A program made the translations under genes and the position numbers. The notes under the pieces are model-generated. The model had not been told where the DNA came from. It searched no databases and was given only the letters and a program-made list of their open reading frames with translations. From Catalinimonas niigatensis (lineage in GTDB: Bacteria > Bacteroidota > Bacteroidia > Cytophagales > Cyclobacteriaceae), in NCBI RefSeq assembly GCF_030506285.1, contig NZ_CP119422.1, forward strand, positions 62,001 to 126,000: a stretch of 64,000 nucleotides of DNA. Reading direction: 5' to 3'. Shown here piece after piece: positions 16,110 through 32,196 of this stretch (position 1 is its first letter; every line of letters begins with the position of its first letter).

Positions 16110-16320
16110 ACCGCTCTTCAGACTAATAGGTGGAATACTACCGGTGAGTTTAGATTGAAAGTAATTCAGGAGGCTATTATACATATTAATTTGGTTTAAA
16201 AAACCCTTGTGCGTCACCAGACATGTATAGGGGAAAGGCTACAGTTCTACCCCTTTATGAAGTAACAATTTAGTAACAGTAAGATAATTTGAAGTATAGA
16301 GATGAATCTATGCAAAGAAA

Positions 16321-16520: not shown

Positions 16521-19500
16521 ATGAAAAAACCTGTACAAAAAAATTATAATCTTAGAAGTTGTTTTCAGTTCACTGCATTGCTGCACTTCCTTCTACTATT
16601 GACAGCAGCAAGTGTACAGGCACAAGAGAAAACAGTTTCAGGTACGGTGTCCTCCGTTGAAGAAGGAAGCCTACCAGGGGTAAACGTACTGGTCAAAGGG
16701 ACTACCACAGGTACCGTCACTGATATGGATGGCAATTATCGGATTACTGTGCCCGCAAGTGAAAGCATCCTGGTCTTTTCTTCTATCGGTTATACTGCTG
16801 AGGAAATCACCGTAGGCAACCAGTCTATCCTCAATATTGAGTTGTTGCCCGATATACAATCATTAAGCGAAGTGGTCGTCACAGCCTTGGGTATAGAAAG
16901 AGAAAGCCAATCGCTAGGCTATGCCATACAGAAACTAGATGGTGAAAAGTTAAACGAATCACGGGAAACCAATTTTACCAATGCTTTGGCAGGAAAAGTG
17001 GCGGGCTTGGATATTAGGTCTAATACCGGCGTGGGAAGTTCTACTCGTGTGATTTTGCGCGGAGAATCTTCTCTGAGTGTCAATGGAAATCAACCGCTCT
17101 TTGTGGTGGATGGCATTCCTATAAGTAATGACATCAACAATTCAACCAGCGCTGACTATGGAAATGCTGCTGCTGAAATAAATCCGGCAGACATTGCCAG
17201 TGTCAACGTGCTGAAAGGTCCTGCTGCTGCTGCTTTATATGGCTCTCGGGCTGCTAATGGTGCCATTGTAATCACGACCAAATCAGGAAAGAACACGAAT
17301 GGAATTGGGATTTCTGTGAATTCCAGTGTCACTTTTGAAGACGTACTGCGCTTACCTCAATTTCAAAATAAGTTCGGCGGAGGTTCTAATGGTTTGTTTG
17401 AAGGTTCAAATTTTGGTTTTCAGGGCAATCTGGACTTATACCCCAATGGTATTCTGGATGGTTATGACGAAAGTTGGGGCCCCCGCCTGGATTATGGTCC
17501 CAACCGCGCTCAGTTTGACTCTCCCACCACCAATGGTTTCAGGGGAGGGGATGTTCACCTGCCCAACCGAGGAGACATCATTCCTACTCCATGGATCTCT
17601 CAGCCCAATAATGTTGAAGATTTCTTTGAAGTAGGCCAAACGATATTTAATAACGTAGCCGTTTCTGGTGGTAATGATAAAGGAAATTTCAGGTTGTCCC
17701 TTACCAATCTGGATCAAAACGGAATTGTGCCAAATAACGACCTGGTGAGGAATACAATGGCTTTGAACACGAGTTACAAGCTAACGGATAAGTTCAAGGC
17801 AGACTTATCGCTGAGTTATATCAAGACAGAAAGTGAAAATCGTCCTGACCAGGGATATGGCAGAAATACGCCCATGTATTTCATACTGTGGATGACCCGG
17901 CAGGTCAATATGAATAGTATGAGAGATTACTGGCAACCCGGATTGGAGGGTGTTCAGCAGTTTCAGTATAACTACGGTGAAAACCACAACAACCCATTTT
18001 TCTACCAGTATGAAAATACCTCTGGCCAGCTCAAAGACCATTTATTAGGCAGAGTAGCCTTAACCTATGATTTTACCGACAACCTGAGTTTGATGGTGCG
18101 TACCGGCACCGACTTATACAATGACTTTCGGTCTATCAGAAGGGCTGTCAGTACGGTTGGAACAGAGAAGGGGAGTTACCAGGAATCTACCTTTTATTTT
18201 GAAGAAAGAAATACGGATATGCTGCTAAAGTATGACTTTAAAAGCAAAGGGAAATTTGGTGCCGTTTTATCAGCAGGAGCCAACCGCCTGGATCAAAACA
18301 GGAGAAGCAATAATATGCTTGCCCCTGAGCTCCTCATTCCCGGCATATATAATCTGGGTAACAACGGAGCACCCTTACAAACCAATGCATTTAGTGCTGA
18401 AAAAAGAATCAACAGTGTGTACGGATTGGCACAGTTTGATTATGACAGCAAGTTGTTTTTAGACATTACCGGACGTAATGACTGGTCCAGTACTTTGCCG
18501 GAAAATAACAACTCCTACTTCTACCCATCGGTTTCTTTCAGTGCATTATTCAACGAAATATTTGCTTTGCCTGAGTTGGTTGATCTGGCTCAGTTGCGAC
18601 TGGGGTGGGCACAGGTGGGTAATGATACCGGCCCTTACCAATTGTTAAACTCTTTTGGATATGAACTCCCCTGGGGAGCAGAATTAGCCCTAACAGAGTC
18701 TGCCACCCTGAAAAATCCTCAACTTAAGCCAGAATCTATCAACACCTATGAAATTGGGGCGAATGTACAGCTATTTAAAAGCAGGTTAGGCATAGACGTG
18801 ACCTACTATGATATACGATCTAAAGATCAGATACTGAACATTCCCCTTACCGAAACCAGCGGCTATCAGTCCAGGGTCATCAACGCCGGAGAAATCCGAA
18901 ATCGGGGCGTTGAACTCATGTTAACCACTACGCCGGTCAGGCTGAACAACAGCTTTCAGTGGGATATCATGGTCAATTTTGCGAAAAATTATAGTGAGGT
19001 TCTTTCTTTAGCCGAGGGAATAGATGCTTTCGTACAGTCGGCACCGGGAGAAGAAGCCACCCTGGAAGCTAGAGTTGGGGAGCGGATGGGTGCTTTGTAT
19101 GGTCCAGGATTTGAAAGAGTAGCAGAAGGCCCTATGACAGGAGAAATCATTATTGGAGCCAATGGCCTGCCCATCAAAACCACCGAGCCTATCTATCTTG
19201 GGAACTTCAACCCTGACTGGACAGCAGGTATAACCAATTCATTTTCTTTTAAAGGTTTTTATGCCCGTGGTCTGTTGGATATCCGATATGGAGGTGTGTT
19301 CATTTCCCGCTTCTATAACAAAGCTATGGGTTCAGGTATCCTGGAAGAAACCGGAAGGGAAAGAGGAGCACGGGAACCGGGAACCGAATATGATGGCCTT
19401 TATTACCATGCCGGTGCGGTACAAAATGAGGATGAAACTTATAGCCAGAATTTGGTCAGCACAGATGGCACAGCAAGTGAAGGTATTTACGGTACCAGCG

Positions 19501-19805
19501 CCAGGAACTATTACAAAGTATACCACGACCACAACTCAGAATCTCAGTTGTTTGATGCTTCTTACATCAAATTGAGGGAAGTAGCCATAGGTTATAATTT
19601 ACCGCAAAAGCTGATGGGCAGGCTGCCTTTCAGAAATGTAAGGGTATCCTTTATTGGAAGGAATCTTAAACTCTGGACAGATAATCCACATTTTGATCCG
19701 GAAACGGCAGTAGCTACAACTGGCGGAGGTCTGATTCCCGGTTTTGAAAACATGAGTTTGCCCTCTACCAAAAGTTGGGGCTTCAACCTGAGTTTTAATC
19801 TGTAA
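16521..19805 (+). CDS. SusC/RagA-type TonB-linked outer membrane transporter
   Basis: A 1094-residue SusC-family protein. After a signal peptide ending at SVQAQ come a carboxypeptidase-like regulatory domain (about 36-120, with VSGTVSS and LPGVNVLVKGTTTGTVTDMD), a TonB plug (about 125-255, with LRGESSLSVNGNQPLFVVDG and LKGPAAAALYGSRAANGAI) and a 22-strand barrel ending in the aromatic-terminal KSWGFNLSFNL. SusC proteins import oligomers bound by the partner SusD lipoprotein. The SusD gene follows after 13 bases, and a six-gene plus-strand series reaches the DUF5690 transporter at 27519. The cargo is not stated by the sequence; the phosphodiesterase and the facing phosphonate operon suggest a phosphonate-bearing molecule. 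Confidence 0.96.
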   Translation: MKKPVQKNYNLRSCFQFTALLHFLLLLTAASVQAQEKTVSGTVSSVEEGSLPGVNVLVKGTTTGTVTDMDGNYRITVPASESILVFSSIGYTAEEITVGNQSILNIELLPDIQSLSEVVVTALGIERESQSLGYAIQKLDGEKLNESRETNFTNALAGKVAGLDIRSNTGVGSSTRVILRGESSLSVNGNQPLFVVDGIPISNDINNSTSADYGNAAAEINPADIASVNVLKGPAAAALYGSRAANGAIVITTKSGKNTNGIGISVNSSVTFEDVLRLPQFQNKFGGGSNGLFEGSNFGFQGNLDLYPNGILDGYDESWGPRLDYGPNRAQFDSPTTNGFRGGDVHLPNRGDIIPTPWISQPNNVEDFFEVGQTIFNNVAVSGGNDKGNFRLSLTNLDQNGIVPNNDLVRNTMALNTSYKLTDKFKADLSLSYIKTESENRPDQGYGRNTPMYFILWMTRQVNMNSMRDYWQPGLEGVQQFQYNYGENHNNPFFYQYENTSGQLKDHLLGRVALTYDFTDNLSLMVRTGTDLYNDFRSIRRAVSTVGTEKGSYQESTFYFEERNTDMLLKYDFKSKGKFGAVLSAGANRLDQNRRSNNMLAPELLIPGIYNLGNNGAPLQTNAFSAEKRINSVYGLAQFDYDSKLFLDITGRNDWSSTLPENNNSYFYPSVSFSALFNEIFALPELVDLAQLRLGWAQVGNDTGPYQLLNSFGYELPWGAELALTESATLKNPQLKPESINTYEIGANVQLFKSRLGIDVTYYDIRSKDQILNIPLTETSGYQSRVINAGEIRNRGVELMLTTTPVRLNNSFQWDIMVNFAKNYSEVLSLAEGIDAFVQSAPGEEATLEARVGERMGALYGPGFERVAEGPMTGEIIIGANGLPIKTTEPIYLGNFNPDWTAGITNSFSFKGFYARGLLDIRYGGVFISRFYNKAMGSGILEETGRERGAREPGTEYDGLYYHAGAVQNEDETYSQNLVSTDGTASEGIYGTSARNYYKVYHDHNSESQLFDASYIKLREVAIGYNLPQKLMGRLPFRNVRVSFIGRNLKLWTDNPHFDPETAVATTGGGLIPGFENMSLPSTKSWGFNLSFNL

Positions 19806-19818
19806 AAGGCAAAAGACC

Positions 19819-21339
19819 ATGAAAAATTACTATATCAAAACACTAGTACTGCTGCTCTCCCTGAATCTTGTATCATTGAGTTGTACCGATGATTTTGAGG
19901 AGATCAACACTAATCCCAATGCGCCGGAGCAGTTAAGCAGCCCTGGTTTGCTTTTACCGACCATCATACGGAATGTCATGCGGGATCATTATACCGCTTC
20001 CTGGACAAGAGGCAATATCGTAGCGGATTATACCGCCAATCAGTTTGTCAGTGCGTTTGACTGGACACCCTCCGATGCAAGCGGATATTTTCTATGGGAT
20101 TATTATAACCACATGAGGAATCTGAATACCATGATGGAACTGGCAAAAGAGAGAGAAATGCAAAATAATGAAGGAGTAGGCCTGGTATTAAAGTCATTCA
20201 TGTTTCAGTCTATGACCGATGTATTTGGTGATATTCCTTATTCGGAAGCTATCCAGGCAAAAAGTAATAATATCAATTTTCCGGTATATGATACGCAGGA
20301 GGAAATTTATAATGGAATTCTGGCAGACCTTGAGCAAGCCAATGTTTTATTGGGATCGGGAAATGATGCACTGACAGGAGATATACTGTACCAGGGGGAT
20401 GTGCTCAAGTGGAAAAAGTTTGCCAATTCCCTCAGGATGAGATGCCTGATGCGGATTTCAGACCGCAGAGACCCTTCGGCAGAAATGTCAAAAATGTATG
20501 GAGATCCTGCTCAATATCCTATGTTTGAAAGTTATCAGGACCAGGCAGCTTTGCAATACCTGGATCAGTTGGGCAACGAATTTCCCCGCTATCGTGCAAC
20601 TGTAGGTGATTTTGCCGGCACTACCCATGCTTCTACAACCTTGATTGGTAAACTTCAGGAATTGAATGATCCCCGACTCTTTGTCTTTGCACAGCCTACT
20701 CCTGCCACAGCCGGAAGCAACAACCGCGTATATGCCGGAGTGCCCAATGGCATTGCCAACGAGGATCTCTACAATGGCGGTAGTGCCAATCAGTCGCCTC
20801 CCGGTCTGCTCTGGGCACCGATCAACTGGGACCCTGAACTGGCTTCTCCCACTGCTGCACAAAGTATGTTGATGAGCAATTCTGAACTGCAATTGATTCT
20901 GGCAGAAGCCGCAGAAAAAGGGTATATCAGCGGAGATGCAGCAGGTTTTTATAGAAAAGGTATACAGGATCAGTTTGACTATTATGCCAGCAGAATTCCT
21001 GCGAATTATAACTTTCCTACCGCCGCAGATGTGCAGCCCGATCCCACTTACTATACCCAGGATCAGGTGGCTTACACCGGTACACAGGAAGAAAAACTGC
21101 AAAAGATATGGTTGCAAAAGTGGCTGTCTCTATTTAACACCGGTTATGAAGGCTGGTCTGAGTGGCGGAGAACCGGTGTACCTGAAATCACGGCAGGTCC
21201 AAACAGTCTGGGCTTTGTTCCGCTAAGACATCTCTATCCCTTAACCGAGCAAAATTTCAACAAGGAAAACTATGATGCGGCAGTAGCCCGACAGGGGACA
21301 GACAATACCCAGACCCGCGTTTGGTGGGATGTGGATTGA
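19819..21339 (+). CDS. SusD/RagB-type substrate-binding lipoprotein
   Basis: A 506-residue outer-membrane lipoprotein with signal and lipobox VSLSC at about 18-22, then DDFEEINTNPNAPEQL, which is typical of the SusD-like 2 branch. Other family stretches are FLWDYYNHMRNLNTMMELA, LKSFMFQSMTDVFGDIPYSEA, KWKKFANSLRMRCLMRISDR near the middle, and WLQKWLSLFNTGYEGWSEWR near the end. It caps the SusC barrel and binds cargo at the surface. The 13-base spacing after SusC supports co-expression. Identity is secure; ligand unknown. Confidence 0.95.
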   Translation: MKNYYIKTLVLLLSLNLVSLSCTDDFEEINTNPNAPEQLSSPGLLLPTIIRNVMRDHYTASWTRGNIVADYTANQFVSAFDWTPSDASGYFLWDYYNHMRNLNTMMELAKEREMQNNEGVGLVLKSFMFQSMTDVFGDIPYSEAIQAKSNNINFPVYDTQEEIYNGILADLEQANVLLGSGNDALTGDILYQGDVLKWKKFANSLRMRCLMRISDRRDPSAEMSKMYGDPAQYPMFESYQDQAALQYLDQLGNEFPRYRATVGDFAGTTHASTTLIGKLQELNDPRLFVFAQPTPATAGSNNRVYAGVPNGIANEDLYNGGSANQSPPGLLWAPINWDPELASPTAAQSMLMSNSELQLILAEAAEKGYISGDAAGFYRKGIQDQFDYYASRIPANYNFPTAADVQPDPTYYTQDQVAYTGTQEEKLQKIWLQKWLSLFNTGYEGWSEWRRTGVPEITAGPNSLGFVPLRHLYPLTEQNFNKENYDAAVARQGTDNTQTRVWWDVD

Positions 21340-21390
21340 CCTTATGCTTCTACCCGGAGATGTTAAACTTTGATGAACTAAGCAACCAAC

Positions 21391-23904
21391 ATGAAAAATA
21401 TATATTTAATAACTGTTTTCTTCTTTTTATGCCTCCTGTCTCAGCCCCTACAGGCACAGGGCCCTATTGTACATCTACCCCTGAATACTGATCTCAACGA
21501 TGGGAGTGGTAACAATTTACATGCAACAGATGCGGGTGATGAGGCTACTGTATTTGTGGAAGATGCTACCAGAGGTACGGTAGCCAGATTTCCCATAGCT
21601 GCCCACGCCCAGCTACCGCTTGATCCGAAATTGGACTTTGGTACAGAAGACTTTTCAGTAGCCTTTTGGGTGAAGGTAGACAATGCTGCTATTCCCGGCA
21701 GTGATCCGGTGATCATTGGCAACAAAGACTGGGGCAGTGGCGGTAATCCTGGTTTCTTAGTAGCCCTGGATGGGGCCAACGAAGCAGGTTCTCATCTCTG
21801 GACTGTCAACGTAGCCGATGGAGCAGGAGGCAGGCTGGATTGGGATGCCGATGATAATGCCACGCCTACATTGACCGATAACCAATGGCATTTTGTGGCC
21901 GTGGTGTTTGATCGGGATGCTACCATGAATGTATATCTGGATGGAGAACTTCGGCAAAGTGATGTGGCAGAAGATTCCAAGAATTTGACCCTGGTTCCTG
22001 GAGATCTGGGTCCCGATGCTTTGCCACTGACTATTATGCAGGATGCTACCGGTGCTTACAGCGCTGACTTTGAAGCTTTCCTGGATGACATACTGGTATA
22101 TGACCGGGTCCTTACTGCTGAAGAAGTAACTGAGCTGAATGAAAATGGCTATACAGTCAACCCTTCTTTGGGAGCGGATGTGTACCTGCCTTTTGATGGA
22201 AACCTCAACGATGCGAGTGGGAATAATTTACATGCGGTAGATGCAGGTACTGAGGCCACTGTATTTGTGGAAGATGCAGCCAGAGGCACGGTAGCCAGAT
22301 TTCCCATAGCTGCCCACGCCCAGCTACCGCTTGATCCGAAATTGGACTTTGGTACAGAAGACTTTTCAGTAGCCTTTTGGGTGAAGGTAGACAATGCTGC
22401 TATTCCCGGCAGTGATCCGGTGATCATTGGCAACAAAGACTGGGGCAGTGGTGGTAATCCTGGTTTCTTAGTAGCCCTGGATGGGGCCAACGAAGCAGGT
22501 TCTCATCTCTGGACTGTCAACGTAGCTGATGGAGCAGGAGGCAGGCTGGATTGGGATGCCGATGATAATGCCACGCCTACATTGACCGATAACCAATGGC
22601 ATTTTGTGGCCGTGGTGTTTGACCGGGATGCCACCATGAATGTGTATCTGGATGGAGAACTTCGGCAAAGTGATGTGGCAGAAGATTCCAAGAATTTGAC
22701 CCTGGTTCCTGGAGATCTGGCTCCTGATGCTTTGCCACTGACTATTATGCAGGATGCTACCGGTGCTTACAGCGCTGACTTTGAAGCTTTCCTGGATGAT
22801 GTTAGAGTGTGGAAAGGTAAAGCATTGAATGCTGAAGAAATCAATGAAGTTTTTGGTTTTGTTGTTGAACAACCCAATGACGAAGCCTACGGAGCCGATA
22901 TTTATCTGCCTTTAGATACTGATTTGAATGACCTCACCGCCAATGCAATCCATGCTACCGACGCAGGTACAGAGACCACCCAATTCGTAGAAGATGCCAT
23001 ACGGGGTACGGTAGCAGAATTTCCAGTGGCAGCCCATGCCCAGTTTCCGGCAGATGCTCCCTTACTGGACTTCGGCACAGAAGATTTTAGCATGGCCTTC
23101 TGGATCAAAATTGATCCTAACCTTTCTACTCCGGGGGATCCGGTGATTCTTGGTAACAAAGACTGGGGCAGTGGCGGTAATCCCGGCTTCCTGGTAGGTC
23201 TGGACGGGGCTGATGATCCTGCCGCCCATTTGTGGACCGTAAATGTAGCGGATGGTGCTGGCGGAAGATTGGACTGGGATGCCGATGATAACCAGACTCC
23301 CAACCTGAAAGATGGCTACTGGCACTTGGTAGCCCTGGCTTTTGACCGTGATGCTACCCTGAATGTGTATCTGGATGGAGAACTCAGACAAAGCGATCCG
23401 GCAGATGATGCTAAGAATTTGACGCTGACCCCAGGTAGCCTTACCTCGCCTTATCCATTGACAATTATGCAGGATGCTACCGGTGCTTATGGGGATGATT
23501 TCGTAGCACGACTGGACAATATCCGTATCTGGAAAAAAGTCATTAGTGCAGAAGAAGTAGCCACTATTTTTGAAATGGACAAAGGAAATGGCACCGGTGG
23601 AGAAGGTGAAATTGTGCTGGGAAACAATCCTTTAGAAGAAATTCCTGATAATTTCAAAGTGTATCCTAACCCAATCGTCAATGGTCAGGCATCTATTCGT
23701 TATTATTTGGCGGCTCCATCAGATATGAGCATTAGCATTTATAATAGAGTAGGACTGAGAATACAGACTGTCCTTAATGAGAAGATGGCTGCTGGTGAAC
23801 ATACACTGAACTGGGATGCTTCTGCTTATCCATCAGGTTTGTACTACTTCCGTATAGAAGGTGATCATTTAAAAAAAACCACTAAAGTAATACTGCTTAA
23901 ATAG
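21391..23904 (+). CDS. Secreted protein with three LamG-like domains and a T9SS sorting tail
   Basis: An 837-residue protein with a signal peptide ending at PLQAQG, three consecutive concanavalin A/LamG-like modules (about 25-250, 262-487 and 505-725) and a C-terminal T9SS type A sorting domain (about 750-837, FKVYPNPIVNG to GLYYFRIEGD and KTTKVILLK). Each module carries LDFGTEDFS, IIGNKDWGSGGNPGFLV, GGRLDWDADDN, NVYLDGELRQSD and TIMQDATGAY. Such modules bind glycans or other surface ligands. The first two are almost identical at DNA level. The position between SusD and a lipoprotein suggests a cell-surface binding protein for the substrate handled by this locus. No catalytic domain is seen. 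Confidence 0.9.
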   Translation: MKNIYLITVFFFLCLLSQPLQAQGPIVHLPLNTDLNDGSGNNLHATDAGDEATVFVEDATRGTVARFPIAAHAQLPLDPKLDFGTEDFSVAFWVKVDNAAIPGSDPVIIGNKDWGSGGNPGFLVALDGANEAGSHLWTVNVADGAGGRLDWDADDNATPTLTDNQWHFVAVVFDRDATMNVYLDGELRQSDVAEDSKNLTLVPGDLGPDALPLTIMQDATGAYSADFEAFLDDILVYDRVLTAEEVTELNENGYTVNPSLGADVYLPFDGNLNDASGNNLHAVDAGTEATVFVEDAARGTVARFPIAAHAQLPLDPKLDFGTEDFSVAFWVKVDNAAIPGSDPVIIGNKDWGSGGNPGFLVALDGANEAGSHLWTVNVADGAGGRLDWDADDNATPTLTDNQWHFVAVVFDRDATMNVYLDGELRQSDVAEDSKNLTLVPGDLAPDALPLTIMQDATGAYSADFEAFLDDVRVWKGKALNAEEINEVFGFVVEQPNDEAYGADIYLPLDTDLNDLTANAIHATDAGTETTQFVEDAIRGTVAEFPVAAHAQFPADAPLLDFGTEDFSMAFWIKIDPNLSTPGDPVILGNKDWGSGGNPGFLVGLDGADDPAAHLWTVNVADGAGGRLDWDADDNQTPNLKDGYWHLVALAFDRDATLNVYLDGELRQSDPADDAKNLTLTPGSLTSPYPLTIMQDATGAYGDDFVARLDNIRIWKKVISAEEVATIFEMDKGNGTGGEGEIVLGNNPLEEIPDNFKVYPNPIVNGQASIRYYLAAPSDMSISIYNRVGLRIQTVLNEKMAAGEHTLNWDASAYPSGLYYFRIEGDHLKKTTKVILLK
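21550..22089 (+). repeat. LamG repeat copy 1
   Basis: A block of about 540 bases that recurs 711 bases downstream (22261-22800) with roughly ten mismatches, nearly all silent. The length is a multiple of three, so the frame is kept. This indicates a recent duplication or gene conversion. Confidence 0.9.
22261..22800 (+). repeat. LamG repeat copy 2
   Basis: Second copy of the block at 21550-22089, about 98 percent identical by eye. The third module (about 22975-23515) keeps the same motifs but is much more diverged. Confidence 0.9.
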
Positions 23905-23947
23905 GAATTAGTCAGAACATGATTGTAATACTTCAAAAAATATAAAA

Positions 23948-24424
23948 ATGAAATATACCCATATACTATTTCCGTGGCTACTTCTCATTTACCTTGTGAT
24001 GATGACCGGATGTGACGAACATGGAGATCCACAGGCAGAGATCAATTTGAATGACCAGCAAAAAGCTGCTGTTTCCATGCGTGGTACCTGGGGACAACCT
24101 TCTCAGGTAACGCTTCCCGAAGGTACTACTGAAGGGGTATTAGATAGCCTGCTGCTGGAGTTTAGAATTTCCGATGCATACGCACCCAGTACGTTTAACG
24201 CTGCTGGTGCCGGTTATTTTTTTAGTGCAGATAATGGGCTTTGGAACTGGGTAGGAGAATCCAACACCAATATCGCTTTAAGCAATGTGACGCCCATTAC
24301 TCAGATTGAAGTGATAAAAGAAGCTTCTACCATTCGCATTACTTTTACCTATGAGGGTACGGAGGGCGCGCGAACTTCAGGGCTAGGAGCGTATGGTGTG
24401 ACTTTGAAAAAAACGGGGCCTTAA
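23948..24424 (+). CDS. Small lipoprotein of the SusCD locus, unknown function
   Basis: A 158-residue lipoprotein with signal and lipobox MMTGC (Cys22) followed by DEHGDP, which suggests anchoring. The rest is predicted beta-rich with RGTWGQPSQVTLPEGTTEGV, FRISDAYAPSTFNAAGAGYF, NGLWNW, and an ITQIEVIKEASTIRITFTYE strand. It ends SGLGAYGVTLKK. Small lipoproteins of this sort often occupy the third or fourth position after SusCD, where they assist ligand binding, but the family was not recognised. It lies 43 bases after the LamG gene and 91 before the phosphodiesterase, on the same strand. Confidence 0.75.
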   Translation: MKYTHILFPWLLLIYLVMMTGCDEHGDPQAEINLNDQQKAAVSMRGTWGQPSQVTLPEGTTEGVLDSLLLEFRISDAYAPSTFNAAGAGYFFSADNGLWNWVGESNTNIALSNVTPITQIEVIKEASTIRITFTYEGTEGARTSGLGAYGVTLKKTGP

Positions 24425-24515
24425 GGAGGGAGTGAAGTGTAATCATGGGAGCTATGACAAACGTTGTCCTCTATTCATCTTACATTCTTCTCAATAAATT
24501 AATACGCAGAAATCA

Positions 24516-26168
24516 ATGAGGTTTTATCAGATCCTTACCCTTTCTTTAGTCTTTATGAGTTTGCATTCTGCCTGTGATAGCGGGGAAGAAAATCCTGCAT
24601 TGGATGTCAAACATGTCATCGTCATTGGGGTAGATGGAATGAGCCCCAACGGAATCATGAACGCCAGTACGCCGGTGATGGACGATATGATGCAGAACGG
24701 TTCTTACACGCTGCATGCCAGGGGTGTGTTGCCAACCAGTAGCAGTTCCAATTGGGCATCTATGGTTTCAGGTGCCGGACCTGAGCAGCATGGAGTTACC
24801 TCCAATGGTTGGGAAAGAGATGATTATATACTACCTCCGGTAGTTACTGGTACTGAAGAAATTTTCCCTACCATTTTTGGAGTCGCCAGGCAGCAGCGCC
24901 CTGACCTGGAAATAGGTGCAATCTATCACTGGTCAGGCTTTGGACGCTTAATAGAAAAGAGCGCCCTGGATTATGATGTTACCGATGGATCTGAACATGC
25001 CATCAGCCAGAAGGCGGTTGCTTATATCAACAATAAAAAACCGGACTTTCTCTTTGTTCATCTGGATCATGTGGACCATGCCGGTCATCATGATGGCCAT
25101 AAAACAGAGCCTTACTATCATTCAGTGTCAGTAGCAGACTCACTGATAGGCAATATCATTCAGGCTACCAAAGACGCTGGTATTTTTGAAGAAAGTGTTT
25201 TTATTGTTTCTTCAGATCATGGAGGCATTGGCTACGGACACGGTGGAGAAACGACTGATGAGATTGAAATTCCTTTTATCATATATGGAAAAGGAGTAAA
25301 GAAGAACCATCTGATTGCTGAAAAAATATATACCTACGACAATGCGGCCACTGTGGCTTTTTTGCTGGGACTTAAGCAGCCTTATGCCTGGATTGGCAAG
25401 CCGGTAAAAAGTGGTTTTGAAGGCTTTGATGTGCCAGAAATCGGAAATCAAAAAGTGTTGATTGCTTCTCCAATCATTTATCCCAAAGCTCATTTATATG
25501 AACCTGCCGGTGGATTCTTTTTGGATGAAGCACATGAAGTCAACATGGAATCCGTGAGTGATGGAGCGGAGATAAGATATACGCTGGATGGTAGCGAACC
25601 GGATAGAAATTCTACTTTATATAAGGCTCCCTTCCCGCTCCACAAAAGTGCAGTAGTGAAGGCCAAAGCTTTTCTGGGTGAAAACGAAGAAAGTAATACT
25701 TCGGAAGCCTTTTTCCGCCTGGTGAAAAGTAATGCCGATAATGGGATAAAGTACAGCTATTATGAGGGGGAGAACTGGAAGTTCCTTCCTGTATTTGCCA
25801 CCCTAAAACCTAAAAAATCAGGCAGGAAATATCAGTTCAGAGTAGATGATATCAACGAAAAAAAGGATCAGTTTGCCATTCGTTTTACCTCCTTTCTTAA
25901 AATTGATACAGCCGGTGAGTACCGCTTTTATACCAGTTCGGATGATGGTAGTAAATTGTTTATAGAAGGGGAAGAAATAGTTAATAATGATGGTGGACAT
26001 GGCGTCATTGAAAGAATGGGAAGTGTAGAGTTGACTGCTGGTTTTTATGAAATTAATGTGGAGTATTTCAATGAAGGCGGTGGTGGCTGGCTGGATGTGT
26101 ACTATAAAGGACCGGGAATTACCAAACAAATCATCCCTGCGAATAAGCTTTACTTCAATAAGCAATGA
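24516..26168 (+). CDS. Surface lipoprotein phosphodiesterase (alkaline phosphatase superfamily) with chitobiase-C-type and PA14 domains
   Basis: A 550-residue lipoprotein (lipobox LHSAC, Cys20). The first domain (about 30-300) is a type I phosphodiesterase/nucleotide pyrophosphatase-like fold with a complete two-metal site: VIGVDGMSPNG (Asp40), nucleophile in LPTSSSSNWASM (Ser near 76), HLDHVDHAGHHDGH, SSDHGGIGYGHGGE. Then comes a chitobiase C-terminal-type beta domain (about 335-400, YTLDGSEPDRNS) and a PA14-like domain (about 445-545, FYTSSDDGSKLFIEGE and GWLDVYYKG) that may bind glycan. Its superfamily also contains PhnA. A phosphate- or phosphonate-ester substrate at the cell surface is likely; which one is not shown. 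The next gene, an organophosphate-carrier-like transporter, starts 40 bases later. Confidence 0.88.
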   Translation: MRFYQILTLSLVFMSLHSACDSGEENPALDVKHVIVIGVDGMSPNGIMNASTPVMDDMMQNGSYTLHARGVLPTSSSSNWASMVSGAGPEQHGVTSNGWERDDYILPPVVTGTEEIFPTIFGVARQQRPDLEIGAIYHWSGFGRLIEKSALDYDVTDGSEHAISQKAVAYINNKKPDFLFVHLDHVDHAGHHDGHKTEPYYHSVSVADSLIGNIIQATKDAGIFEESVFIVSSDHGGIGYGHGGETTDEIEIPFIIYGKGVKKNHLIAEKIYTYDNAATVAFLLGLKQPYAWIGKPVKSGFEGFDVPEIGNQKVLIASPIIYPKAHLYEPAGGFFLDEAHEVNMESVSDGAEIRYTLDGSEPDRNSTLYKAPFPLHKSAVVKAKAFLGENEESNTSEAFFRLVKSNADNGIKYSYYEGENWKFLPVFATLKPKKSGRKYQFRVDDINEKKDQFAIRFTSFLKIDTAGEYRFYTSSDDGSKLFIEGEEIVNNDGGHGVIERMGSVELTAGFYEINVEYFNEGGGGWLDVYYKGPGITKQIIPANKLYFNKQ

Positions 26169-26208
26169 GGCGGTTTTTTGTGAATTTCAAACATAGCATA
26201 GGTAATCC

Positions 26209-27519
26209 ATGAAAAGTATTCGCCCATTAAAAGATACAAGTGGCATATTTTTCATTCTGTGGTGCATGCTGGCATCTTTTGGGGCTTATTTCTGTATGTA
26301 TGCTTTCCGCAAACCTTTTACTACCAGCCTCTATGAAGGGTATCAACTTTGGGGCATAGGCTATAAAACGGTCTTGATTATCTCCCAGGTACTTGGCTAT
26401 ATGATTTCCAAATTTGTGGGTATCAAGGTCATTTCGGAACTTCGCCCTTCCCGCCGGATATTCCTCATCCTGGGATTGATTCTTTTTGCAGAAGCCGCTT
26501 TGCTGGGTTTTGGATTGGTACCTTTTCCTTTCAACTTTGTCTTTCTCTTTCTTAGTGGACTGCCGCTGGGCATGGTCTGGGGAGTTGTATTTAGTTTTTT
26601 AGAAGGTAGACGGGTTACCGAAGTGATATCTATTGGGCTCAGTATCAGCCTGATTGTAGCCTCGGGAATATTGAAAACTATTTATCTGGAACTACATCAA
26701 TGGTTGCCTGCCATCTCAGAATTCTGGATGCCTTTTGTCATTGGCCTCTTGTTCCTGCCGCTGTTTTGTTTTTTTGTTTGGATGCTTTCGGTCATTCCCG
26801 AACCTTCACACGAAGATAAATTGCTGCGCAAAGAAAGACGACCGATGAACCGGCAGGATAAAAAGCTGGTACTGAAAGAATATGGTTTTGGGCTTGCCTG
26901 CTTGGTGATGGTCTATGCACTACTGGCTACTTTAAGGGATTTCAGGGATAATTTCTCAGTAGAGATTTGGACTGAAATCACTGTAGACTGGAATAGCACA
27001 GTATTTTCACAGACGGAAATGATCAGCGGATGTATCGTGTTGCTGGCAGTGGGCGCCATATCGGTATTTAAAAATAATGTACGGGCATTCCGCTTCACCC
27101 TTCTCCTGATCACTTTCGGTATTGTGCTTAGTGGTGTGAGTACTTTGCTGTTTCAGGAAGGCATATTGTCACCTTTTCTTTGGATGCTTTTCTTAGGAAT
27201 AGGTTTGTTTTTGGCTTATATCCCTATACAAACAGCTTTGTTTGAAAGAATGATTGCCGCTTACCGGATCAATGCCAATGCAGGTTTTTTTGTGTACATT
27301 TGTGATGCCATTGGCTATCTGGGAAGTGTAGGGTTGTTGATATACAAAGAGTTTTTTGCCAAAGAGCTGCGCTGGTCTGTCGTACTCATTGAGTTTAGCT
27401 TTTTGACCACTTTGGCAAGCCTGCTACTGCTGTTGGTGGTGTATGTATTTTACTACAGAAAGCTCAAAACCTATCCAGCCATACAACCCTCCAGGGAGCC
27501 GGTAGAATCTTATATTTAA
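26209..27519 (+). CDS. DUF5690 family membrane transporter, MFS-like
   Basis: A 436-residue protein with about twelve hydrophobic segments, matching DUF5690. The N-terminus MLASFGAYFCMYAFRKPFTT closely resembles the first helix of organophosphate:phosphate antiporters such as GlpT and UhpT. A central cytoplasmic loop (about 200-220, EDKLLRKERRPMNRQ) separates two six-helix halves. Inner-membrane import of a phosphate- or phosphonate-containing solute is a reasonable inference. It ends the plus-strand series and its last four bases overlap the 3' end of the FAD oxidoreductase gene on the other strand, so the import and catabolic operons converge. Confidence 0.88.
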   Translation: MKSIRPLKDTSGIFFILWCMLASFGAYFCMYAFRKPFTTSLYEGYQLWGIGYKTVLIISQVLGYMISKFVGIKVISELRPSRRIFLILGLILFAEAALLGFGLVPFPFNFVFLFLSGLPLGMVWGVVFSFLEGRRVTEVISIGLSISLIVASGILKTIYLELHQWLPAISEFWMPFVIGLLFLPLFCFFVWMLSVIPEPSHEDKLLRKERRPMNRQDKKLVLKEYGFGLACLVMVYALLATLRDFRDNFSVEIWTEITVDWNSTVFSQTEMISGCIVLLAVGAISVFKNNVRAFRFTLLLITFGIVLSGVSTLLFQEGILSPFLWMLFLGIGLFLAYIPIQTALFERMIAAYRINANAGFFVYICDAIGYLGSVGLLIYKEFFAKELRWSVVLIEFSFLTTLASLLLLLVVYVFYYRKLKTYPAIQPSREPVESYI

Positions 27520-28667
27520 AAAAGAGAAGCGATGTTCTCTTCAGCGAATCCTGCACTGGAAGTCATGCCTTTGCCACCGATACCCGTAAAAATATGGATA
27601 TTGTCAGAGGAGGTATGGCTGAAAATTTCATCGGCATGCTGGCTGTAGTAGCCTGCCCAGCTGCTAGCAATTTGACGTACATCAAAAGTGACTATCTTCT
27701 GAGCTTCCTGTAAAATTAAATCATTAATATCTTGGTTGATGTGAAAACCTAATTGTTCACTTTGGGCAGCTTCGGCATATTCATGAGAATCACCGATGAC
27801 GATACTTCCATCAGGAGTCTGTTTAAACAGGATATGCACGCCCCACTTTTTGAGTTCCTCATAATGTTTGGGTGTCTTTAAAGTAGAGTAGGAAGGACAT
27901 TCGGTAAATGACTCATAACGACGGATAGATAAGCCAGTGAGTATATTTCCGGAGAGGGAAACGTCAGGCAGAGGAAAGCTGCGCATCATCTGCAATTTAC
28001 TCACCATCATGCCGCTCTCATTATATAATTTAGGAAACAAGAGTCTGAATTCGGCTCCGCTGCAAATGATACTCTTTTCTGCCGTAAAGTTTTCTTCCTG
28101 CGCAGTGTTGACCCTGACTCCATGTACGGTGGATTCTATCGCAGTAGCAGCGCTATAATTCCGGTAGACAAAATGTGTGTATCGCTGCTGCATAAAAGCG
28201 ATCAGGCGGTGGATCATCAGTTCCGGTTCCACGCTGATTTCCTGGGGAAAGTACAAACCTTCCAGCACATAAGCAGCATTCAGGGAAGGCCATTGCTGCA
28301 GGCATTGTTGCCGGGTCAACAACTCGCAGGCATATCCTTTGGTGTCAAATATTTGTTTGGATTCATGCAGTAGCTGCTGCTCTTCCGGATCTGATGCCAG
28401 GTACACACTTCCGTTTTTTCTCACCGAAATGTCAAATTGCTTTTGAATGTCCTGATAAATTTCCAGCCCTCTGACACCATAGTCAAACCACCTGCCTGCC
28501 ATGCCGGAGGGCACAACCTGTCCGAAATTCCTGACGGTAGCTGACTGCGGACCAGCATTTTTCTCCAGTAAAAGTACGCTTAATCCTTTTTTAAGGGCAT
28601 GATAGGCATGAAAAGTGCCCACTACTCCGGCTCCTACTACGATCAGATCAAAATGTTTTTGTGCCAT
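27516..28667 (-). CDS. FAD-dependent oxidoreductase, TIGR03364 type, of phosphonate catabolism
   Basis: A 383-residue DAO-superfamily flavoprotein. The dinucleotide motif GAGVVG is at residues 12-17, followed by LLLEKNAGPQSATVRNFGQ, the signature of the TIGR03364 group, and by SGMAGRWFDYG. The C-terminus has HIFTGIGGKGMTSSAGFAEE. This group recurs next to phosphonate breakdown genes, and related flavoenzymes have been reported to oxidise 2-aminoethylphosphonate or its N-methyl form to phosphonoacetaldehyde. That product is the substrate of the next-door PhnY, whose stop is 48 bases upstream. It would thus replace the usual transaminase PhnW, which is not seen here. Substrate assignment is inference from family and context. 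Confidence 0.88.
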   Translation of the reverse strand: MAQKHFDLIVVGAGVVGTFHAYHALKKGLSVLLLEKNAGPQSATVRNFGQVVPSGMAGRWFDYGVRGLEIYQDIQKQFDISVRKNGSVYLASDPEEQQLLHESKQIFDTKGYACELLTRQQCLQQWPSLNAAYVLEGLYFPQEISVEPELMIHRLIAFMQQRYTHFVYRNYSAATAIESTVHGVRVNTAQEENFTAEKSIICSGAEFRLLFPKLYNESGMMVSKLQMMRSFPLPDVSLSGNILTGLSIRRYESFTECPSYSTLKTPKHYEELKKWGVHILFKQTPDGSIVIGDSHEYAEAAQSEQLGFHINQDINDLILQEAQKIVTFDVRQIASSWAGYYSQHADEIFSHTSSDNIHIFTGIGGKGMTSSAGFAEENIASLF

Positions 28668-28715
28668 AGGTTGAAAAACAATGGGGGTAAATGTATTAAA
28701 AACGAGAACATATAT

Positions 28716-30167
28716 TTACCAGGGAAGAGAGTAGGTTTTGACATAACTAAAACATTTCATCGCCTCAATGACTCCCTCTTTGATACCCAATCCAGAATCT
28801 TTGATTCCACCAAAAGGAGACTTTTCAAGACGATAACCAGGCACCTCATTGATATTGACTGTACCTACCTTTAGGGATTTTATGGCTTTAATGGCATGTT
28901 CCAGGTTCTGGGTAACTACTCCTGAGGCTAGTCCGTAAACGGTAGAATTCGTAAGTGCAATGGCATCATCCAGGTCTTTGACTTTCATAATAGGAGCCAA
29001 GGGACCAAAAGACTCACAAGTCACCATCTGGGCATTACGGGGCACGTTGGCAATCACCGTTGGTTCCATCAGCGCACCATGTCTCTGGCCACCTAGCAAA
29101 ACCCGGGCACCTTGCGCTACTGCTTTTTGTACTACTTCCTCCAGGTACTTAGCCGCTGGTTCATCAATCACTGTCCCTACCCGGGTGGCAGGGTCAGATG
29201 GATCGCCAAAAGTATATTGCTTAGCTTCTTCCACAAAGCGTTCTGTGAAAGTGTCTGCTATTTTTTTATGCACCAGAATTCTTTTGACAGCAGTGCAACG
29301 CTGGCCGGAATTACGAAATGAGCCCTCTGCTGCCAGCTTGATGGCCAAATCCATATCCGCATCATCCAGGACGATCAGTGCCGCATTGCCGCCCAGTTCC
29401 AGTACCAGTTTTTTATAGCCAACTGAACTGGCAATGGACTTTCCTACCGCTACACTACCTGTAAAAGAAACGAGCTGCACACGTTTGTCCTGCACCAGCA
29501 CTTGCGCTACTTCTTTCGTTGGACCGACAAGTACACTCAACATATAAGGAGGCAGACCTGCTTCGTACAATAATTCTGTAAAGCGTATGGCAGTTAGAGG
29601 AGTTTTTTCCGAGGGTTTCAGGATCAGTGGTGCGCCTGCTGCAATCGCCGGAGCTACTTTGTGTACCACCTGGTTGAGTGGATGGTTGAAGGGTGTGATG
29701 GCCACGGCCAAGTCAATAGGCTCCCGACAGGTATAGATTTTTCTGGCTTTACCCTGGGGTGAGATATCACAGGAATAAATGTCCCCATCATCCTGTAGGG
29801 CTTCCATGGCAGCGAAGCTAAGCACATCAGTAGCGCGCCCTACTTCATAGAGAGTTTCATTGATGCTTAGTCCTGACTCGGCACAAATCAGTTGAGCAAA
29901 CATTTCCTTACGTTCCAGCAACAGTTGTTTGGTCTTATCAAGGATCTCGTATCTTTCGTAGCGGGTCAATGGCTGGCCTCCTTTAAGACCGGCAGCAATG
30001 GCGCTTTGTGTATCTTTCAGCGTGGCCTGGCTTACCGTACCCACCAGGCTGCCGTTGTAAGGATTGTATACTTCCAGCATAGAATTGCCCGGCAGCTTTT
30101 CCCCGGCGATATAACTATGAAGTTCAAGCATAGCTTGGTCAGAACTTGGGTGTATTTTCGTTTGCAT
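28716..30167 (-). CDS. phnY: Phosphonoacetaldehyde dehydrogenase
   Basis: A 483-residue NAD(P)-dependent aldehyde dehydrogenase that oxidises phosphonoacetaldehyde to phosphonoacetate. Active-site residues are in LELGGNAALIV (Glu257) and NSGQRCTAVKR (Cys291); TPFNHPLNQVVHKVAPA and SFTGSVAVGKSI form the cofactor site. The C-terminus EVPGYRLEKSPFGGIKDSG is typical of the PhnY branch. It sits between phnA (11 bases upstream) and the FAD oxidoreductase (48 bases downstream), the expected order of substrate flow in reverse. Length is normal for the family. Identity rests on both sequence and neighbours. Confidence 0.92.
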   Translation of the reverse strand: MQTKIHPSSDQAMLELHSYIAGEKLPGNSMLEVYNPYNGSLVGTVSQATLKDTQSAIAAGLKGGQPLTRYERYEILDKTKQLLLERKEMFAQLICAESGLSINETLYEVGRATDVLSFAAMEALQDDGDIYSCDISPQGKARKIYTCREPIDLAVAITPFNHPLNQVVHKVAPAIAAGAPLILKPSEKTPLTAIRFTELLYEAGLPPYMLSVLVGPTKEVAQVLVQDKRVQLVSFTGSVAVGKSIASSVGYKKLVLELGGNAALIVLDDADMDLAIKLAAEGSFRNSGQRCTAVKRILVHKKIADTFTERFVEEAKQYTFGDPSDPATRVGTVIDEPAAKYLEEVVQKAVAQGARVLLGGQRHGALMEPTVIANVPRNAQMVTCESFGPLAPIMKVKDLDDAIALTNSTVYGLASGVVTQNLEHAIKAIKSLKVGTVNINEVPGYRLEKSPFGGIKDSGLGIKEGVIEAMKCFSYVKTYSLPW

Positions 30168-30178
30168 GGGAAAATGGG

Positions 30179-31426
30179 TCAGTCAGCAATGCCATTGAGG
30201 CAAAACTCAAAAATATCAAAGTTTCTGGGATCACCGGCAGCTTTGGCCTGGTATTCAGTATTCAAGGGATGAGAAATGGCCATAGGTACCATCTCTTCGT
30301 AACGGCCTCCATGAGAGCGTAAGCCTGAATCCAGGGCGGAAAGGTCGTGATCTGCCGGGGTCTTGCCCAGTACTGTATCTCTTCCGGAAAGAACTATTAG
30401 GTCACCAATTCGATCTCCGGGTTGCTCCAGCAAGTGTAAAGAGGTATCGCGCCCATGTACTTCCGTGATTCCCGGCTGTTGTAATAGCCATGTCTTTACT
30501 TCTGCCTCAGCCATGCCTTCCGGTAAATAAACCACGACATAAGAGCCCAGCGCTCCGTGATGTTTGACATAAGGATCAGTGATTGGGCAAATGATCCTGA
30601 AGCCCTGGCCAAATTTCTCCTCAAGTAAACTTCCAAGGTAAATGACTTTAGGACTGCCATCAGGATTTTGTTTGGCGTTCATGCCATGGTCAGCGGTAAT
30701 GCCTACTATGGCACCTAAATCAAGCAGTCGGCCAAATTCAGTGTCAATGGCCTGGTAGAACGCCAGTGATTCAGCTGCCTCCGGCGCATACTTATGCTGC
30801 ATATAATCGGTAAGGGATAGGTAGAGGAAATCAGCTTTCTTCTGTTGTAGTAAAGCTACGCCTGCTTTAAGAACAAATAAGCTGGCCTCGGCACTGTATA
30901 CTGGAGGCGTATCCAGACCGATGAATTTATTCACCTGAGCAATTCCATGTGTGTCTTCCCGGGCTTCCGTAGCTTTTTCAGCAGAGAAAGCGATGCCTTC
31001 TAACTCGTGAGATAAAATATCCCTGAGTTTGTCTTTGGCAGTGATCACGGCTACTTTACGTCCTGTCTTAGCAGCAGCAGCCAGTATGGTGGGGGTACGT
31101 AAGTATTCAGCGGAATTCATCATAATTTCCTGATCACGTTCACGGTCATAAAAGAAATTACCACAGATGCCATGTAGGGCTGGGGAGACTCCCGTTACGA
31201 TAGAAGTATTATTTACATTGGTAAAAGAAGGTAAAGCGCCCCGAACCATGCCCCTGTACCCACGGAGGGCCATTTTCTTAAGGTTAGGCATTTTATCCCG
31301 GGCAAGGGCTACATCCAGATATTCGTCTCCACAACCGTCAAAGCAAATGACGACTACTGCTTTGTCAGGTAAATGATAGGTTTTTCCATTAACCGAAAAT
31401 GCATTCATACTTTTAGTCAATTCCAT
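30179..31426 (-). CDS. phnA: Phosphonoacetate hydrolase
   Basis: A 415-residue alkaline phosphatase-superfamily enzyme that cleaves the C-P bond of phosphonoacetate to acetate and phosphate. The metal and catalytic residues are all present: ICFDGCGDEYLD (Asp30), nucleophile Thr69 in ALPSFTNVNNTSIVTG, SLTDYMQHKY (Asp and His), ITADHGMNAK, and the late His in GLRSHGGRYEEMVP. The length matches known PhnA. It is the first gene of the catabolic operon. Candidate regulatory repeats lie 35-94 bases upstream, between it and the XRE-cupin gene. Cytoplasmic location follows from the absent signal peptide. Confidence 0.96.
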   Translation of the reverse strand: MELTKSMNAFSVNGKTYHLPDKAVVVICFDGCGDEYLDVALARDKMPNLKKMALRGYRGMVRGALPSFTNVNNTSIVTGVSPALHGICGNFFYDRERDQEIMMNSAEYLRTPTILAAAAKTGRKVAVITAKDKLRDILSHELEGIAFSAEKATEAREDTHGIAQVNKFIGLDTPPVYSAEASLFVLKAGVALLQQKKADFLYLSLTDYMQHKYAPEAAESLAFYQAIDTEFGRLLDLGAIVGITADHGMNAKQNPDGSPKVIYLGSLLEEKFGQGFRIICPITDPYVKHHGALGSYVVVYLPEGMAEAEVKTWLLQQPGITEVHGRDTSLHLLEQPGDRIGDLIVLSGRDTVLGKTPADHDLSALDSGLRSHGGRYEEMVPMAISHPLNTEYQAKAAGDPRNFDIFEFCLNGIAD

Positions 31427-31460
31427 GTATTTAATAATCTGTACTGAATCAAGAAGATTG

Positions 31461-31520
31461 TTTAGTATATATAACTAAAGTTTAGCATAAATATACCACA
31501 TCAAACTTAAATTAGCTTGA
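31461..31520 (-). promoter_or_regulatory. Candidate promoter and operator for the phnA operon
   Basis: On the minus strand 31502-31509 reads TAAGTTTG, a match to the Bacteroidota -7 consensus TAnnTTTG; a clear -33 element at normal spacing is absent. The same bases lie inside an imperfect 20-bp palindrome, TCAAACTTAAATTAGCTTGA (31501-31520). Nearer the gene, TTTAG (31461-31465), CTAAA (31475-31479) and TTTAG (31481-31485) form inverted repeats. The adjacent XRE-cupin regulator could bind either; this is inference. Confidence 0.4.
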
Positions 31521-31623
31521 TTTTTTTTGTTGTTTGCAAAATTCTTAACTTTTAAAGTGCTCTTGCTAATTAGCATGGTACCTAATCAAAGAAAAATAGG
31601 AAAGGTAAAATTTAAAGCGCCGC

Positions 31624-32196
31624 TCAGGAAAAGAAATAATAAACCAGCATAAGAGCATCTTCCTGTCCATGATTGGAAAGCTTATGTCCGATACGGCCAT
31701 CAAAAAAGAGAGAATCTCCGGCATAAAGGGTATATTTTTTTTTACCGATTGTATATTCAATACTTCCTTTAAGAAAGTACTTGTACTCATGGGCATCTGT
31801 TTTTACCGTTTGTGTTCTTCCAGCCCCTGCCTTCACTTCCAGCAAAACAATGTCAACAGCTTGATCCTTAATATTGGTTGTGAGTACACGCCGGTAAGTG
31901 AAACCTTCCTCGGGCTCTTTTTCAAAAGATTTGTACTGGCTTTCTCTTTTCACAATGACCTTAGGTTCTATATTCATCTGATCTATGCCATTAAAGAAAT
32001 CATTCAGATCAAGCTTCAGCGCTTTAATAATTTTAAAAAGTACCGGCAAAGAGGGTATGGTACGGTTGTTTTCTATCTGAGAAATTAATCCTTTGCTTAC
32101 TCCCGCAGCATCCGCAAGTTCTTGCACAGTCACTCCGATGCGTTTGCGTTCTTCTCTTATTTTCTGACTGACTTGTAAGAGGATATGATCTTCCAT
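31624..32196 (-). CDS. XRE-family regulator with C-terminal cupin domain
   Basis: A 190-residue regulator. Residues about 10-65 are a helix-turn-helix (RKRIGVTVQELADAAGVSKG and SQIENNRTIPSLPVLFKI). Residues about 105-188 form a cupin (VLLEVKAGAGRTQTVKTDAH and YTLYAGDSLFFDGRIGHKLS). XRE-cupin proteins commonly sense a small catabolic substrate and control the next operon. It lies 197 bases upstream of phnA on the same strand, with palindromes in the gap, so control of the phosphonate operon is a natural reading. The effector is unknown. Confidence 0.93.
   Translation of the reverse strand: MEDHILLQVSQKIREERKRIGVTVQELADAAGVSKGLISQIENNRTIPSLPVLFKIIKALKLDLNDFFNGIDQMNIEPKVIVKRESQYKSFEKEPEEGFTYRRVLTTNIKDQAVDIVLLEVKAGAGRTQTVKTDAHEYKYFLKGSIEYTIGKKKYTLYAGDSLFFDGRIGHKLSNHGQEDALMLVYYFFS

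Follow-up and report, generated by a model that had tools for sequence, protein, structure and literature searches.

To our knowledge, in a non-exhaustive reading of the field, the bacterial transporters described for aminoethylphosphonate (AEP) act at the inner membrane. AepXVW, AepP, and AepSTU provide dedicated AEP uptake for mineralization, and the accessible text of PMC8316502 describes them without a TonB or outer-membrane component. Downstream of uptake, a hydrolytic pathway of PbfD, PhnY, and PhnA is described in PMC10590968: a TIGR03364 member is among the PbfD enzymes that oxidize N-methyl-AEP to phosphonoacetaldehyde, in one case AEP was oxidized just 4-fold slower than N-methyl-AEP, and PbfD2-PhnY-PhnA is given as a possible full pathway, with Luteolibacter luteus as the example. 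At the outer membrane, the PusCD phosphate utilization systems of Flavobacterium join a SusCD-like pair to phosphodiesterases, and one sentence in the accessible part of PMC8115612 states that PusCD complexes co-localize with phosphonate-degrading enzymes. Here we describe a ten-gene locus at 16521-32196 of a 64,000-nucleotide stretch (hereafter the window; bases 62001-126000 of the 7.13-Mb single-contig genome of Catalinimonas niigatensis). Six plus-strand genes (susC-susD-LamG-lipoprotein-phosphodiesterase (PDE)-DUF5690) converge on three minus-strand genes, phnA-phnY and a flavin adenine dinucleotide (FAD) enzyme gene, with an XRE-cupin regulator gene upstream of phnA. We consider it likely that this locus is a SusCD system for phosphonate utilization, extending from uptake to carbon-phosphorus (C-P) cleavage.

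The locus encodes the same three enzymes as the PbfD-PhnY-PhnA pathway, whereas the available text of PMC10590968 mentions neither TonB nor a phosphodiesterase, and the parts covered include no outer-membrane uptake, PDE, or DUF5690. As in PusCD systems, a SusC and SusD pair stands beside phosphoesterase and phosphonate enzymes, with a glycoside hydrolase family 31 (GH31) gene divergent upstream. PusCD systems are defined in PMC8115612 by low-phosphate induction in Flavobacterium, and the parts covered of that paper name no DUF5690, TIGR03364/PbfD, PhnA/PhnY, or XRE-cupin. The window locus, by comparison, comes with an XRE-cupin gene of its own, which may place it under substrate control. The first-pass annotation had presented the pairing of SusCD with C-P catabolism as new; given the co-localization already reported for PusCD, this was overstated. 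In the open-licence literature searched, no paper dealt with DUF5690, a Pfam family without an assigned function, and SusD was paired with AEP nowhere but in a reference-list mention. On these grounds, and given the prior mention of co-localization, we place the locus with the PusCD systems, as a variant in which DUF5690 gains a new role that can be tested. In the accessible part of PMC10752948, phosphonate appears only as a predicted biosynthetic cluster.

Linkage of SusCD, DUF5690, and C-P enzymes across Bacteroidota

We surveyed 395 genomes drawn evenly across Bacteroidota, the window genome included. DUF5690 scored above its cut-off at 48 places in 42 of them. All 48 neighbourhoods (~10 kb, some cut by contig ends) were examined, with frames labelled by hidden Markov models (HMMs) built in this analysis at their own thresholds; PhnX-like, PbfD, PbfA, PhnW, PhnA, PhnY, and HD oxygenase genes were counted as C-P genes. 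All nine labels checked against NCBIfam held (four PhnW, five FAD enzymes). With the window counted, C-P genes lay within ~10 kb at 34 of the 48 loci. A SusC-SusD pair was present at 17/34 C-P-linked loci, spread over six family codes of the sample, compared with 0/14 other DUF5690 loci (Fisher p = 6.7e-4, uncorrected for kinship), and at 16/33 when the window was left out. The XRE-cupin homologue followed the same division (21/34 vs 0/14), as did the PDE (22/34 vs 1/14).

Viewed from the FAD enzyme, TIGR03364 scored above cut-off in 32/395 genomes; 29 of these carried DUF5690, compared with 13/363 of the others, and in 23/32 the two genes were ≤5 kb apart. SusCD lay near TIGR03364 at 17/32 loci. 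Twelve FAD genes of the survey were called distant by our narrow HMM, and all 12 genomes have a TIGR03364 match above cut-off. Several loci carry SusCD and C-P enzymes on one strand with gaps <250 bp, as in the operons SusC-SusD-PDE-HD-PhnA-PhnY-PhnW-FAD-DUF5690 (locus L075, which differs from the window in having PhnW and another FAD enzyme) and SusC-SusD-PDE-PbfA-PDE-DUF5690-PbfD-PhnX (L133). The first-pass annotation had proposed that the two halves of the locus belong together and that their adjacency could be sought in relatives. The adjacency does recur in other Bacteroidota, at half of the C-P-linked DUF5690 loci, and the survey did not refute the proposal. From these related islands across the phylum, phosphonate-bearing molecules are probably taken up and digested as a unit.

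A contig scan with the window FAD enzyme returned 35 loci (34 Bacteroidota, 1 Lentisphaerales), a redundant set with many Pedobacter and with some loci ending at contig ends. By tblastn, DUF5690 was found at 28/35, the XRE-cupin homologue at 25/35, and SusC with SusD at 17/35. The window SusC is 45-46% identical to the SusC of five Cyclobacteriaceae/Cytophagales TIGR03364 loci, and many carriers of the FAD locus are Pedobacter and Sphingobacterium, with Runella also represented. C-P enzymes varied: a PhnX-like cluster was present at 14/35 loci (two members confirmed by NCBIfam) and PhnA with PhnY at 2/35 (L059, [Flexibacter]; L070, Chitinophaga). The plan of the window recurs with other enzymes in three Sphingobacterium loci (L044, L049, L052), where PDE-LamG, small-lipoprotein homologue, metallophosphoesterase, PbfA, and DUF5690 genes converge on PhnX-like and PbfD genes.

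SusD relationships were compared with a background from the same genomes. Matches to the window SusD were sought in the window genome and in the genomes of 34 of the 35 named loci, the Lentisphaerales genome being set aside. From these 35 genomes, 40 neighbourhoods of high-ranking matches off the FAD locus were taken as background, with flanks of ~6 kb, shorter than the ~10 kb used above. Within these flanks, 0/40 held a C-P gene, DUF5690, or XRE-cupin homologue. Three close SusD matches (the genome's own paralogue L112, L113, and L114) likewise had no C-P genes; an XRE-cupin homologue was present at L112. In a maximum-likelihood tree of 77 rows (34 phosphonate-locus, 40 background, 3 close matches), 22 phosphonate-locus rows formed one supported (starred) clade, and a second starred clade of 14 joined 11 phosphonate-locus rows, the window included, with the three close matches. 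One phosphonate-locus row (L115) lay elsewhere, and all 40 background rows fell outside both starred clades. On this tree the phosphonate-locus label required 5 changes, compared with 25.5 on average after shuffling. Sister to the 22-row clade were background loci L163 and L186, each with a weak PDE match in its operon. At L112 (G000:C1:6152000-6171900), the paralogous SusCD pair, its SusD 52% identical to that of the window, stands beside metallophosphoesterase-LamG and XRE-cupin genes, and looks like a sister organophosphorus locus.

Operon content was also compared. The 97 other operon proteins of 26 phosphonate SusCD loci (3 of the 11 Pedobacter loci taken; one operon without another gene and a few unrelated downstream genes included) gave, among others, 18 PF01663, 11 DAO, 10 DUF5690, and 8 HD matches, compared with 12 FecR, 8 GDPD, 8 Metallophos, and 2 PF01663 among 89 background proteins. 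GDPD and calcineurin-like phosphoesterase genes occur in the background operons (L160-L199), as do FecR/sigma-70 pairs. Glycoside hydrolases were absent from the 25 families shown of 55 in phosphonate operons and from the 25 shown of 69 in the background; because the two lists are alike in this, we dropped that absence as evidence.

Genes of the locus and the proposed route

All ten genes were located in the window, nine of them assigned by family models (bits against the curated cut-offs of NCBIfam TIGR models and Pfam). The gene list of the first-pass annotation was borne out in coordinates and families, including the 4 bp shared by the 3' ends of the DUF5690 and FAD-enzyme genes (27516-27519). 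On the plus strand, SusC, a TonB-linked outer-membrane transporter (16521-19805; TIGR04056, 627 bits, cut-off 368), is followed by a SusD-like_2 surface lipoprotein (19819-21339; PF12771, 310 bits, cut-off 27), a LamG protein sorted by the type IX secretion system (T9SS) and presumed to be a surface binding protein (21391-23904; PF13385 in three stretches; TIGR04183, 31 bits, cut-off 23), a 158-amino-acid lipoprotein without a family match (23948-24424), and the PDE lipoprotein (24516-26168; PF01663, 105 bits, cut-off 23). The PDE also carries a PA14 domain (PF07691) and a chitobiase-type CHB_HEX_C domain (PF13290), the latter absent from the first-pass annotation. DUF5690 (26209-27519; PF18943, 503 bits, cut-off 25), a predicted inner-membrane transporter like GlpT and the organophosphate:phosphate antiporters, closes the run. 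The minus strand encodes the FAD oxidoreductase of the PbfD family (27516-28667; TIGR03364, 369 bits, cut-off 285), the phosphonoacetaldehyde dehydrogenase PhnY (28716-30167; TIGR03250, 656 bits, cut-off 636), the phosphonoacetate hydrolase PhnA (30179-31426; TIGR02335, 506 bits, cut-off 408), and the XRE-cupin transcription regulator, presumably local in action (31624-32196; HTH_3 and Cupin_2). The two runs fit two convergent operons because gaps within each span 11-91 bp (plus run 13, 51, 43, 91, and 40 bp; minus run 48 and 11 bp). None of the six genes of the SusCD operon is a recognized carbohydrate-active enzyme gene, the small lipoprotein having no family match. Lipoprotein-type N-termini were found in SusD (SLSC-TDDFEE), the small lipoprotein (MTGC-DEHGD), and the PDE (HSAC-DSGEE); the acidic residues that follow the cysteine resemble surface-export signals of Bacteroidota. 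By eye, long stretches are almost identical between the LamG repeats in the T9SS protein, which would be a sign of recent internal duplication.

The catabolic half stands as the first-pass annotation described it, with the TIGR03364/PbfD enzyme, PhnY, and PhnA together on one strand and each above its curated cut-off. Neither PhnW (TIGR02326) nor PhnX-like (TIGR03351) had a match above cut-off in the whole window genome, and PbfD is therefore the likely entry enzyme. Among the families searched in the genome, PbfD, PhnY, and PhnA form the sole route from aminophosphonate to phosphate. From characterized family members (PMC10590968), we infer that the FAD enzyme oxidizes AEP or N-methyl-AEP.

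The GlpT-like character that the first-pass annotation had assigned to DUF5690 agrees with its predicted fold. In an AlphaFold (AF2) model from 19 sequences (mean predicted local distance difference test (pLDDT) 87), the seven best Foldseek matches were human G6PT/SLC37A4 and E. coli GlpT (query template-modelling score 0.65-0.67), with other carriers of the major facilitator superfamily (MFS) close behind. Across the 19 sequences, helix 1 keeps R34-K35 and helix 7 keeps R243 without exception. Against a GlpT/UhpT/UhpC profile, hhalign set YAFRKPF of DUF5690 on YLVRKNF of GlpT, which contains R45-K46, and R243 corresponds to GlpT R269 in an ungapped match made by eye. In GlpT, the arginine-lysine pair of transmembrane helix (TM) 1 and the arginine of TM7 hold the phosphate. 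The profile match was weak (probability 10.6, E 0.003, 102 columns), the MFS_1 match was below cut-off, and the DUF5690 profile found no chain among PDB sequences at E up to 1. From the predicted GlpT/G6PT-like fold and the invariant R34-K35 and R243, DUF5690 is likely a carrier of phosphoryl or phosphonyl anions, and its gene company points to an aminophosphonate as the substrate. The arrangement recalls GlpQ-GlpT of E. coli, where a diester phosphodiesterase gene likewise lies beside a gene for a GlpT-fold transporter; in the window the gap between the PDE and DUF5690 genes is the 40 bp given above. GlpQ belongs to another phosphodiesterase family than the window PDE. The window genome holds a second DUF5690 gene (L074, 7381-12176; G000:C1 ~6345380-6350175), with a short PDE, a PHP-domain phosphoesterase, and a class III aminotransferase; without a recognized C-P enzyme, it is possibly a second aminophosphonate locus. 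Similar class III aminotransferase genes adjoin PDE-CHB-PA14 genes in L211 and L212 and lie beside PhnX-like and PbfA genes in L121.

The catalytic domain of the PDE resembles nucleotide pyrophosphatase/phosphodiesterases (NPP). Its D40, S76, D187, H191, D234, and H235 align with D30, T69, D207, H211, D246, and H247 of the window PhnA, the positions of the two-metal ligands and of the Ser/Thr nucleophile in the alkaline-phosphatase superfamily. As judged from this alignment, the PDE keeps an alkaline-phosphatase-type two-metal site with serine at the nucleophile position; H242, in an unaligned GHGG motif, is likely the last metal ligand, and a phosphonate/phosphate diester hydrolase is the probable function. 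Because the model (mean pLDDT 59.8) is poor outside the catalytic domain, the CHB and PA14 domains were left uninterpreted. Eight of 13 full-length relatives (>380 bits in the 395 genomes, window excluded) lie at C-P loci, and a ninth (L215) lies with a cut HAD frame (PhnX label, 99 bits; Pfam HAD_2), SusC-like frames, and an XRE-cupin gene. Three loci (L202, L204, L207; Bacteroidota in the GTDB sense) encode an ~820-amino-acid protein of two PDE domains with CHB and PA14, in operons with PbfA, PhnA, PhnY, and TIGR03364, and with PhnW in L204 and L207. PbfA, PhnA, and TIGR03364 pass the NCBIfam cut-offs in all three, and PhnY of L202 and L207 falls just under (634 and 633 vs 636). In L044 and L049, the DHGG motif of the PDE-LamG proteins is missing its aspartate, and these proteins may be non-catalytic.

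We propose the following route. SusC and SusD, aided by the T9SS LamG protein and the small lipoprotein, would capture a molecule bearing ester-linked (N-methyl-)AEP and import it through the outer membrane. Either on the cell surface or in the periplasm, the PDE would split the phosphonate monoester to free the aminophosphonate, as its fold, catalytic residues, and gene company suggest. DUF5690 would bring this product to the cytoplasm, perhaps by exchange with phosphate, a role consistent with its fold and invariant arginines. By family-level assignment, the PbfD-type FAD oxidase would convert it to phosphonoacetaldehyde, PhnY would oxidize this to phosphonoacetate, and PhnA would cleave the C-P bond to give acetate and phosphate, reactions that are known from characterized relatives. 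The XRE-cupin protein would probably control the locus in response to the substrate. AEP and N-methyl-AEP occur on invertebrate N-glycans according to the accessible part of PMC6935376, and a shellfish sphingolipid with N-methyl-AEP is cited in the reference list of PMC10590968. We propose AEP and N-methyl-AEP esters of this sort as the kind of substrate. An exclusively marine origin was dropped, since many carriers are Pedobacter and Sphingobacterium.

Competing explanations

Several observations weigh against a dedicated phosphonate system. SusCD often accompanies phosphonate genes, but by no means always: it is missing from 17 of the 34 C-P-linked DUF5690 loci, and 14 of all 48 DUF5690 loci lack a recognized C-P gene, the second copy in the window genome included. 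L059 and L070 hold PDE, PhnA, PhnY, FAD enzyme, and DUF5690 with no SusCD within the stretch examined. PhnA scored above cut-off in eight genomes of the class (weak matches in 256/395 genomes were set aside), and SusCD accompanies it in two, the window and G278, some of the other six stretches stopping at a contig end. The combination of SusCD, PhnA, PhnY, and PbfD in the window recurs at none of the labelled loci. The far end of L049 encodes SusD_RagB, of another Pfam family than the window SusD, and a cut frame that resembles the end of SusC without a Pfam match. Seventeen genomes carry SusCD at the FAD locus. In five of them (Cyclobacteriaceae/Cytophagales), no SusD in the genome matches that of the window better than the one at this locus; in the remaining 12 (11 Pedobacter, 1 Runella), a SusD elsewhere, without a C-P gene, matches best. 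Four of the 13 PDE relatives are away from C-P genes, two of them beside a class III aminotransferase. A search for common words and palindromes upstream of the SusC, PhnA, and XRE genes, made without a chance model, revealed no shared operator; the matches were all short and AT-rich (≤16 bases, 2 mismatches).

The main competing explanation is a general organophosphate system, in which the PDE would split phospholipid, teichoic-acid-like, or nucleotide diesters, DUF5690 would import the phosphorylated product in the manner of GlpT, and the phn operon would serve only part of the diet. We regard this as unlikely. The best folds of the PDE are NPP-type phosphodiesterases, GDPD and Metallophos each account for 8/89 proteins of the background SusD operons, the nearest SusD paralogue (L112) has phosphoesterase and XRE-cupin neighbours without a C-P gene, and DUF5690 occurs without C-P genes at the 14 loci noted above; organophosphates at large may be what kin of the window SusD handle, and this favours the explanation. 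Yet SusCD is absent from all 14 of those loci and present at 17 of the 34 with C-P genes, and several loci unite SusCD and C-P enzymes in one operon.

Chance adjacency of an ordinary glycan SusCD locus and an unrelated phosphonate operon is highly improbable. The divergent GH31 gene (13947-16217), ~300 bp upstream of susC, would suit it, convergent operons require no functional link, and a shared operator was not found; however, the next three genes beyond GH31 encode two peptidases and a DUF885 protein, and neither the 17 linked loci over six family codes nor the SusD clades accord with chance. Least probable of all is that SusCD serves as a capped channel for free AEP alone, with the PDE kept for another purpose: four SusCD C-P loci (L144, L152, L155, L159) have no labelled PDE, but the PDE is concentrated at C-P-linked DUF5690 loci and the same domain set lies inside the PbfA-PhnA-PhnY-TIGR03364 operons of L202, L204, and L207.

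Implications for phosphonate use in Bacteroidota

As a phosphonate-utilization system, this type of locus offers a surface-to-cytoplasm route to phosphonate bound in lipids and glycans. It gives DUF5690 a new, testable predicted role, ties a phosphodiesterase architecture to phosphonates, and names Pedobacter, Sphingobacterium, and Runella as carriers. The accessible part of PMC12366243 states that pbfA-phnY-phnA occurs in Proteobacteria only; PbfA above its NCBIfam cut-off was observed with PhnA and PhnY in the Bacteroidota loci L059, L070, L202, L204, and L207, which widens the reported range of these clusters. Whether the islands together form a phylum-wide SusCD class for phosphonates is an evenly balanced question. 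Such a class would have its own SusD lineages, a DUF5690 permease, ester hydrolases (PDE-CHB-PA14, short PDE, or PDE-LamG), a swappable C-P set (PbfD, PbfA, PhnW, PhnX-like, PhnY-PhnA, or HD oxygenase), and an XRE-cupin protein, and would be devoted to discrete foraging of glycans and lipids decorated with (N-methyl-)AEP. If this holds, (N-methyl-)AEP-decorated material of animals, protists, and microbes would be among what these bacteria forage.

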